The position numbers and the translations under genes are program-made. From Actinocorallia populi (GTDB taxonomy: Bacteria; Actinomycetota; Actinomycetes; Streptosporangiales; Streptosporangiaceae), in the NCBI RefSeq assembly GCF_002995495.1, contig NZ_PVZV01000004.1:124001-188000 (forward strand): a stretch of DNA of 64,000 nt. The letters run 5' to 3'. This document shows, piece after piece, positions 3,707-5,351 of this stretch. Numbering within the stretch: position 1 is the first letter of the stretch; every line of letters begins with the position of its first letter. Under the pieces are notes generated by a model that was not told the origin of the DNA, did no database searches, and saw only the letters and a program-made list of their open reading frames with translations.

Positions 3707-3777
3707 CTAACCGGTGAAAGTGACTTTAAGGGTTAGGTCATCGATCGTCAACCGGTCCAGCGGGCATGAGTGGTTAG
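3707..3777. promoter_or_regulatory. VOC/CGNR intergenic region with repeated GGTTAG elements
   Basis: CTAACC at 3707-3712 and GGTTAG at 3731-3736 form an inverted pair 18 bp apart; a further GGTTAG at 3772-3777 overlaps the -10 box of the CGNR gene. This arrangement suits an operator shared by the divergent VOC and CGNR genes. The assignment is inferred from position and repetition only. Confidence 0.3.
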
Positions 3778-3787
3778 CATGGGTGCC
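3775..3787 (+). promoter_or_regulatory. Leaderless-type -10 box of the CGNR gene
   Basis: TAGCAT at 3775-3780 lies exactly 7 nt before the ATG at 3788, with no Shine-Dalgarno sequence. This decides the start at 3788 over the upstream GTG at 3770 and ATG at 3779. Confidence 0.45.
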
Positions 3788-4333
3788 ATGGACCCCCGAC
3801 CGCTGACCGGTGAGCCGATCTCCGTCGAACTGCTGAACACCCGGTGGATCCAGGACGGGCGGTGGCAGGACCTGCTCACCTCGCCCGACGGCCTGGCGAT
3901 CTGGCTCGCCTCGCCCACGGTCGTCTCGGAGCTGGGGGAACACCCCGTCCACGCCGACGAGCCGACGCTCGCCGCGCTGCTGCGGGCGCGGGACGGCCTG
4001 GCGGCGCTCCTGGCCGACCCCGCGGACACGGCGGCGGCCGACGCCGTGCTCGCCCGCGGGGTGCTCCGCCTCGCCGCCTCACCGCAGGGCGTCGTCGAAC
4101 GCCTCGAACTGGACGATCTCGCCTACTACCCGGCCTGGACGGCGGTGCGGAGCCACCTCCGCCTGATCGGCGACCGCCCCGACAGGTTCCGCAAGTGCGC
4201 GAACGAGGCATGCGTCCTGCACTTCTTCGACATCTCGAAGAACGGCACGCGCCGCTGGTGCTCCATGACGGGCTGCGGCAACCGGGCCAAGGCCTCCCGC
4301 CACTACGCCCGCACCCGCTCCGGGCGGGACTGA
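3788..4333 (+). CDS. CGNR zinc-finger regulator (ABATE/DUF1470 family)
   Basis: A 181-residue protein. The N-terminal about 125 residues form the DUF1470 (ABATE) domain, thought to sense a ligand. The C-terminus is a CGNR zinc finger: FRKCANEACVLHFFD, then RRWCSMTGCGNRAKASRHY, giving the C-x4-C and C-x4-C metal set with the CGNR signature. These proteins are presumed DNA-binding regulators in Actinobacteria. It is divergent from the VOC gene and is its likely regulator. The start at 3788 is chosen because a TANNNT box ends 7 nt upstream. Confidence 0.85.
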   Translation: MDPRPLTGEPISVELLNTRWIQDGRWQDLLTSPDGLAIWLASPTVVSELGEHPVHADEPTLAALLRARDGLAALLADPADTAAADAVLARGVLRLAASPQGVVERLELDDLAYYPAWTAVRSHLRLIGDRPDRFRKCANEACVLHFFDISKNGTRRWCSMTGCGNRAKASRHYARTRSGRD

Positions 4334-4335
4334 GG

Positions 4336-4659
4336 TCAGTGGCCTCCGCCGGCCAGGTTGAGGCCCACCACCCCGGCGAGGATCAGGAGGATCGAGGCGA
4401 TCTTGAGGGGCGAGGCGTTCTCGCCCAGGACCAGGACGCCCAGGGCGGCGGTGCCGACGGCGCCGATGCCCGTCCAGACGGCGTAGGCGGTCCCCACCTC
4501 GAGGTGCTTGAGGCCCAGGGACAACAACCCGAAGCTGAGCACCGCGAAGACGGCGAAGGAGACGCTCGGGGCGAGGACCGAGAAGCCCTTGCTGAGCTTC
4601 AGCGAGTAGGCCATGGCGACCTCGAACAGACCTGCGGTGATGACCATCAACCAAGCCAT
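4336..4659 (-). CDS. gdx: Small multidrug resistance family guanidinium exporter (Gdx/SugE type)
   Basis: A 107-residue, four-helix SMR transporter, the usual family length. The membrane-embedded proton/substrate glutamate is E13 (GLFEVAMAY), followed by SLKLSKGF. The segment GTAYAVWTGIGAVGT matches the Gdx/SugE branch, which exports guanidinium, rather than the EmrE/Qac drug-pump branch. AAGGAGGA lies 6 nt before the ATG. A 40-nt element upstream (4682-4721) matches the guanidine-III riboswitch, which strongly supports guanidinium as substrate. Gdx is a dual-topology homodimer in known cases. No second SMR gene is present next to it. Confidence 0.92.
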   Translation of the reverse strand: MAWLMVITAGLFEVAMAYSLKLSKGFSVLAPSVSFAVFAVLSFGLLSLGLKHLEVGTAYAVWTGIGAVGTAALGVLVLGENASPLKIASILLILAGVVGLNLAGGGH

Positions 4660-4681
4660 GACGGCTCCTCCTTGCGGAAAA

Positions 4682-4721
4682 GCGTCGTCTTTGCAGGCCG
4701 GGTACGGCGCGTCTCGTCCGG
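4682..4721 (-). ncRNA. Guanidine-III (ykkC-III) riboswitch
   Basis: Read on the minus strand, the element starts CCGGACGAG, continues GCGCCGTACCCGG, then an A-rich stretch and AAGACGACGC. This is close, as I recall it, to the crystallised Thermobifida fusca guanidine-III aptamer. The P1 stem CCGG/CCGG is intact. The pseudoknot helix pairs GCGCCGT with ACGACGC, with one C-A mismatch relative to the recalled perfect partner ACGGCGC. The 3' strand of the pseudoknot ends about 10 nt before the gdx Shine-Dalgarno, which suits translational control. A separate GGACCC/GGGTCC hairpin (4724-4740) lies just upstream. Confidence 0.85.
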
Positions 4722-4880
4722 ACGGACCCCTCCTGGGTCCATACCGCCCTCAACGAACGGGACATCCCCCGGATTCCCGGACCGTCCGGAGAGGCCGGGG
4801 GGGCTGGAGGGAGCGGAGGCCGCCGCCCTCCCCGACCAGGTCACAGGTTTCCGGAATGTCCGCCGGGTAGGAGAGGAGAT

Positions 4881-5351
4881 ATGACGACGACGAAAGCGAA
4901 CACCCTGCTCAAGACGTCGATGGCGGTCGGGGTCGCGGCCGGGGCGGGCGGCCTGGTCACCGACGCGAAGTCCGACTGGTACCGCGAACTCGACAAGCCG
5001 TCCTGGCAGCCGCCGCCCCAGGCGTTCGGCATCGTGTGGCCCGCGCTCTACGGCCTGATCGCCTACTCGGCCGGGCGGGCCATGGACCGCGCCCCCGCCG
5101 GCGAACGGCGGGGCGTGGCGCAGATGCTCGGCGTCAACCTGGCGCTCAACACGGGCTGGTCGGCACTGTTCTTCGCGGCCAAGAAGCCGCGTGTCGCGCT
5201 GGGCGAGATCGTGGCGCTCAACGTCTCCAACGCCCTGCTGGTGAGCAAGGCCTGGCGGGCCGACCGCACCGCGGGGATGCTCCTGCTGCCGTACGCGGCC
5301 TGGACGGCCTTCGCGACCGTCCTCAACAGCGCGATCGTCCGCCGGAACTGA
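4881..5351 (+). CDS. tspO: TspO/MBR family tryptophan-rich sensory protein
   Basis: A 156-residue, five-helix membrane protein. WYRELDKPSWQPPPQAFGIV near residues 33-52 is the TspO N-terminal signature, followed by WPALYGLIAYSAGR and NLALNTGWSALFF; this last segment corresponds to the porphyrin/cholesterol pocket region. TspO proteins bind tetrapyrroles and modulate stress responses. A GGAGAGGAG Shine-Dalgarno precedes the ATG. It is divergent from gdx, sharing the 221-bp region that contains the riboswitch on the other strand; no functional link to guanidine is implied. Confidence 0.93.
   Translation: MTTTKANTLLKTSMAVGVAAGAGGLVTDAKSDWYRELDKPSWQPPPQAFGIVWPALYGLIAYSAGRAMDRAPAGERRGVAQMLGVNLALNTGWSALFFAAKKPRVALGEIVALNVSNALLVSKAWRADRTAGMLLLPYAAWTAFATVLNSAIVRRN

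Follow-up and report, generated by a model that had tools for sequence, protein, structure and literature searches.

A guanidine-III riboswitch in the leader of an SMR exporter gene of Actinocorallia populi and a hairpin that may serve as its expression platform

How might a leader that serves just one SMR exporter gene in Actinocorallia populi sense guanidine and pass that signal to the ribosome, when the pseudoknot of its aptamer carries a C-A mismatch? A preliminary description of this DNA had placed a guanidine-III aptamer ahead of the gene, and a cmscan search of the 64-kb window (the whole 64,000-nucleotide stretch that was analyzed) against Rfam, the check which that description had proposed as a possible refutation, bears this out. 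RF01763 (Guanidine-III) matches at 4744 to 4679 on the minus strand with 55.8 bits against a gathering score of 36 (E value, 7.6e-9), complete over model positions 1 to 67. No other Rfam family reached its gathering score in the window, RF01763 is present as a single copy in the whole 8.25-Mb genome, and no Guanidine-I riboswitch was found elsewhere in that genome. The span first noted, 4660 to 4721, runs from the first base of P1 to the base preceding the start codon; the Rfam match extends further 5', to 4744, because the model takes in a variable hairpin, here at 4740 to 4724. P1, GCGCCGT, and the P2 3' strand all lie on the minus strand where they had been placed, and the spacing of about 10 nucleotides between the aptamer and the Shine-Dalgarno (SD) sequence comes to ten bases, 4681 to 4672. 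The features of the locus are as follows.

4336 to 4659, minus strand: SMR exporter gene, 107 amino acids (PF00893, 85.6 bits against a cut-off of 23.7, full length)
4657 to 4659, minus strand: start codon ATG of the SMR gene, which starts 22 nucleotides past C41
4660 to 4689, minus strand: proposed OFF hairpin, minimum free energy of -16.0 to -16.2 kcal/mol, which excludes P2
4667 to 4671, minus strand: Shine-Dalgarno sequence GGAGG, 10 nucleotides past the aptamer and 7 ahead of the ATG
4682 to 4721, minus strand: aptamer core, bases C1 to C41 by the T. fusca numbering, with a variable loop two bases shorter (RF01763 match)
4682 to 4688, minus strand: P2 3' strand ACGACGC (bases 35 to 41), with A38 at 4685 opposite C15
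4704 to 4710, minus strand: P2 5' strand GCGCCGU (bases 12 to 18), including G17 at 4705 and C15 at 4707
4711 to 4713, minus strand: third strand of the P2 triplex, G9 A10 C11 (GAC), from the sequence
4714 to 4717, minus strand: invariant ACGA (A5 to A8), from the sequence
4718 to 4721 with 4698 to 4701, minus strand: P1, CCGG with CCGG, from the sequence and RF01763
4724 to 4740, minus strand: variable 5' hairpin GGACCC-AGGAG-GGGTCC, 6 bp, outside the crystallized core, placed by Rfam model positions
4881 to 5351, plus strand: TspO-like gene; the aptamer, on the minus strand, is intergenic between it and the SMR gene (4659 to 4336, minus strand)

Judged by its family membership, the element is a real and typical guanidine-III riboswitch with a putative ligand response. 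That membership, the gene order, and the geometry are direct observations; guanidine as the ligand, the direction of regulation, and the transport substrate we infer. Neither a sigma-70-like nor a terminator-like site was found within 4250 to 5000. The ACGA, CGUAC, and GACG core and the bases C6, G7, and G17 are all present, and six of the seven P2 pairs are Watson-Crick, the fourth being the C4707/A4685 mismatch (C15/A38). Bases 9 to 13 (4713 to 4709) and 37 to 41 (4686 to 4682) are the same five letters, GACGC, which gives the CGUC ahead of the start codon two possible GACG partners. In the triplex, A10 falls on C15.A38 and C11 on G14-C39; the third strand of T. fusca we take to be G9 G10 U11. 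Passages of PMC5696562 on the T. fusca structure (5NWQ) describe a P1 formed by bases 1 to 4 with 21 to 24, contacts of guanidine with C6, G7, and G17, and a triplex that sets G10 on C15-G38 and U11 on G14-C39. The window aptamer shares with it the CCGG/CCGG P1, the ACGA/CGUAC/GACG core, the P2 pseudoknot, the three contact bases, an SD sequence soon downstream, and an SMR gene, and differs in having C15.A38 for C15-G38, A10 C11 for G10 U11, and an aptamer-to-SD distance of 10 rather than 16 nucleotides (PMC5696562).

The element is very probably a guanidine-III (ykkC-III) ON switch that acts on the SMR gene through a hairpin hiding the SD sequence, and the most likely switch is a hairpin built in part from the P2 3' strand. 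In the absence of ligand, the P2 3' strand (GACGACGC) would pair with the CGUC just ahead of the start codon, and the pairing would run on into an anti-SD/SD stem, GCUUUUCC-GCAA-GGAGGAGC, hiding the ribosome binding site. The outer stem of this hairpin joins GACG (4689 to 4686) to CGUC (4663 to 4660), with A38 and C39 bulged; the inner stem joins GCUUUUCC (4683 to 4676) to GGAGGAGC (4671 to 4664) across the loop GCAA (4675 to 4672), with the SD sequence buried. Both the hairpin and P2 use the P2 3' strand, and on paper the two structures are mutually exclusive. With guanidinium bound between C6, G7, and G17, the P2 pseudoknot and triplex would hold that strand, the base of the hairpin (the GACG/CGUC and GC/GC pairs) would be lost, and the SD sequence would be freed; the exporter would then be made, and guanidinium would leave the cell. 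Nearest-neighbor sums give -4.9 kcal/mol for ligand-free P2 against -16.0 kcal/mol for the hairpin. The C15.A38 mismatch leaves ligand-free P2 weak, and the OFF state may be firmly set as a result.

The stability of the hairpin in the window leader (L001) has a z score of -4.4 and is equaled by none of 100 shuffles of the linker. Across 136 unique stretches of P2 strand plus linker with an SMR open reading frame, a set that includes some mechanically assigned start codons and a few erroneous linkers, the mean z score was -1.19, and for 50 stretches no more than 5 of 100 shuffles were as stable. The excess was found in 24 of 48 members of the A10/C.A class, 4 of 7 of G10/C.A, and 13 of 33 others, and it was weak in the commonest class, G10/C-G (9 of 48; mean z score, -0.52). 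Eighteen representatives with less than 60% protein identity gave a mean z score of -1.45, with 9 of 18 showing the excess (Wilcoxon P = 0.0056). CGTC, which is complementary to the invariant GACG, lies no more than 12 nucleotides before the start in 49 of the 136 leaders, compared with a shuffle mean of 13.6 and maximum of 24 in 200 rounds; among the same named loci it precedes 27 of 74 riboswitch genes versus 17 of 276 mechanical control open reading frames with an SD sequence (Fisher P = 3.6e-10). In 19 relatives, hand-chosen because the hairpin stem was visible, 95.2% of the hairpin pair cells form, versus 35 to 57% when the alignment is slid by one to three columns. No pair in these relatives changed on both sides and the covariation score was not above that of shuffles, so that the comparison speaks for conservation of the hairpin and not for covariation. 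The whole 105-nucleotide leader exceeds its shuffles in stability only modestly (z score, -1.63; 9 of 200 shuffles as good), and cuts of 85 and 28 nucleotides have z scores of -1.10 and -1.03. The A10/C15.A38 aptamers of Streptosporangium, Nonomuraea, Planotetraspora, and Planobispora agree with the window at bases 9 to 15 and 34 to 41, and those with short linkers have a hairpin of the window type, GACG(AC)GCUCC-loop-GGAGC-CGUC, from which the window stem differs in its U-rich anti-SD with two G-U pairs and its GCAA loop. The idea that A38 is itself an adaptation to the expression platform was rejected, as exchange of A38 and G38 gave no hint of linkers being matched to base 38 (P = 0.35).

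It is rather unlikely that the main output of the same riboswitch is mRNA stability, with the folded pseudoknot blocking RNase E scanning and SD exposure being secondary. The effect of guanidine-III on RNase E was reportedly described by Richards and Belasco in 2021. A 2025 review, in the passages that concern this class, has guanidine-III promoting a pseudoknot that halts RNase E scanning (PMC12186494); the SD hairpin of the window, however, surpasses shuffled linkers in stability by a wide margin and is joined directly to the P2 strand. The same passages state that guanidine-III is predicted to free the SD sequence and has been shown to affect mRNA stability (PMC12186494), so that the hairpin proposed here gives specific shape to an idea already in the literature, and a passage of PMC5696562 calls the mechanism less well established. 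In-line probing cited in that paper found P1 and P2 of T. fusca paired even without ligand, which, as cited, fits an SD-hiding hairpin poorly unless a longer leader competes.

The C-A mismatch, presented in the preliminary description as a departure from the usual form, is real (C4707/A4685) but is no peculiarity of this locus, being a recurrent family variant. Because the NC line is unmarked at the C-A pair, Rfam's own model does not count the pair as bad. Of 102 filtered aptamers whose third strand has its full three bases, 44 have C15.A38; relatives are over-represented in this sample, which derives from 149 regex places in 150 loci after 42 were dropped by a P1/P2 filter (true aptamers with a changed P2 pair among them) and 5 had a shorter third strand. 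All 31 of the 102 that have A10 also have C15.A38, and the G10 aptamers of this set have at pair 15/38 C-G (30), C.A (10), U-A (8), U.G (6), or A.A (3). A looser parse yielded 162 aptamers out of 215 loci, 157 of them with the 7-nucleotide stretch; A10 was present in 55 of these 157, all with A38, and A38 in 26 of the 102 without A10. Within the same order, 83 of 297 genomes match a pattern of A10 with any base at 38, and among the matches listed all have A38 and C15; a phylum-wide pattern search matched only 6 of 396 genomes, and the exact aptamer core was found in none of the viral contigs. The A10/A38 form is present in Actinomycetota, Myxococcota, Pseudomonadota (two Legionella records), Planctomycetota, and Verrucomicrobiota. 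Among 100 relatives, 45 have a guanidine-III match, 43 of them over the cut-off.

All A10 aptamers comprise two core sequences, GACGCGC or GATGCGC with GACGACGC, and the coupling of A10 and A38 in a base triple is for this reason not independently demonstrated. The same pattern would arise if a single old haplotype had been passed on by descent or transfer; a base triple, with like third-strand purine on like purine, may be another way to read it. We rejected A10-A38 as proven covariation despite the lack of any exception in 157 aptamers. By corrected mutual information the pair ranks first or second with all rows or with one row per genus and sequence, and with the count restricted to the 47 distinct core sequences it is no longer among the top ten column pairs. 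The SMR tree calls for at least 8 changes of A10 and 15 of A38, with only 4 independent pairs on supported branches, too few for a sign test to attain significance. We know of no structure of the C.A aptamer form. It is conceivable, though very improbable, that A10-C11/C15.A38 marks a distinct sub-class, placed ahead of a proton-coupled exporter, whose triplex is closed by protonated bases, making the switch responsive to pH in addition to guanidine; A10 would then sit with a C15.A38+ wobble, and C11+ would lie on G14-C39. If true, this would account for A10 never occurring without A38 (0 of 157) and for a form frozen to two cores across five phyla.

One of the seven P2 pairs is non-Watson-Crick and neither of two genomes of the same genus (G001 and G002) has a guanidine-III match in a search with stricter filters, as might be expected if the mismatch had broken P2 and left the element unresponsive. 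Such decay is hardly credible, given the prevalence of C15.A38 in the filtered aptamers and of the A10 pattern in the order, the 19.8 bits by which the window exceeds the Rfam gathering score, and the recurrence of the exact core in five phyla.

The best solved-structure matches of the SMR product are the SMR chains 6wk5_B and 8vxu_A, the former of which we take to be Gdx-Clo. The product aligns full length and ungapped to 6wk5_B, with E13, S42, Y59, and W62 in common with the Gdx (SugE) exporters and Met16 in place of their Trp16. The NCBIfam SugE equivalog model PRK11431 is the best of 21 SMR models for this protein, yet its score of 107.6 bits is below the cut-off of 126. Of the earlier claim of a Gdx-type SMR protein, membership in the SMR family (PF00893) and nearness to Gdx stand; the protein is likely to be "Gdx-type" and a putative guanidinium exporter by its sequence, and that label is not fully secured because of the missed SugE cut-off and the Met at Trp16. 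Passages of PMC7695847 describe Trp16 as conserved in Gdx and as supporting E13 in Gdx-Clo, where guanidinium exchange is reduced, though not lost, in the W16G variant; the clade with Met16 may accordingly have altered transport.

In 136 riboswitch-linked SMR proteins, residue 16 is Trp in 86, Met in 45, Phe in 1, and unread in 4, and the Met16 proteins form a single actinomycete clade with one change on the SMR tree. Although 39 of the 45 Met16 genes stand behind A10/C15.A38 aptamers, a shift of this aptamer class to another guanidinyl ligand in step with Met16 was rejected as scarcely believable: the conserved core is intact, C6, G7, and G17 included, this aptamer class also precedes 8 Trp16 genes while 6 Met16 genes have a different one, and shared descent accounts for the association, since Met16 is one clade with a single change and exceptions run both ways. 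Next to the SMR gene, a gene for a CGNR zinc-finger/ABATE-type regulator (3770 to 4333) converges with it, their stop codons two bases apart. Elsewhere in the genome, on contigs C12 and C2, four further SMR matches form two adjacent pairs that look like two-subunit SMR pairs; having one RF01763 match only, the genome leaves these four without a guanidine-III switch.

Guanidine-III aptamers above the gathering score also lie directly before genes for small membrane proteins of the CBU_0592 family (L079, L114, L044, L066, and L059), with further such loci at L229, L233, L237, L241, and L249 and at L235, apparently the same contig as L044. The assignment rests on NCBIfam NF047864 for L044, L066, L079, and the loci of a class-wide search and on alignment for L059 and L114. 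In that search the family matched in 27 of 246 genomes of the class, and 6 of 30 CBU_0592 loci examined had a guanidine-III aptamer. Nine aligned proteins have an invariant Glu in GF(L/F)LLE and a Trp three residues further on; four tested had no Pfam match, no match was found among solved structures, and a literature search found no paper mentioning CBU_0592. An arginase-family open reading frame follows the aptamer at L060 (PF00491, tested), with similar-looking frames at L148, L166, and L182. At L093 the aptamer is followed by an EamA-like transporter, which scored below the cut-off, and at L185 by an Sm_multidrug_ex protein (PF06695).

On its own, the window riboswitch is one more member of a known riboswitch class, and its interest, which is for specialists, lies in the sequence of the sub-class, the hairpin model, and the CBU_0592 lead. 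The proposed hairpin, which takes up both the P2 3' strand and the SD sequence, offers a concrete expression-platform model for the guanidine-III class. Two natural core forms dominate, the C.A "mismatch" being one of them, and T. fusca (C15-G38, G10) therefore does not represent the whole class. The presence of guanidine-III aptamers before CBU_0592-family genes suggests an uncharacterized guanidine-related membrane protein and makes this family a candidate guanidine-related transporter.
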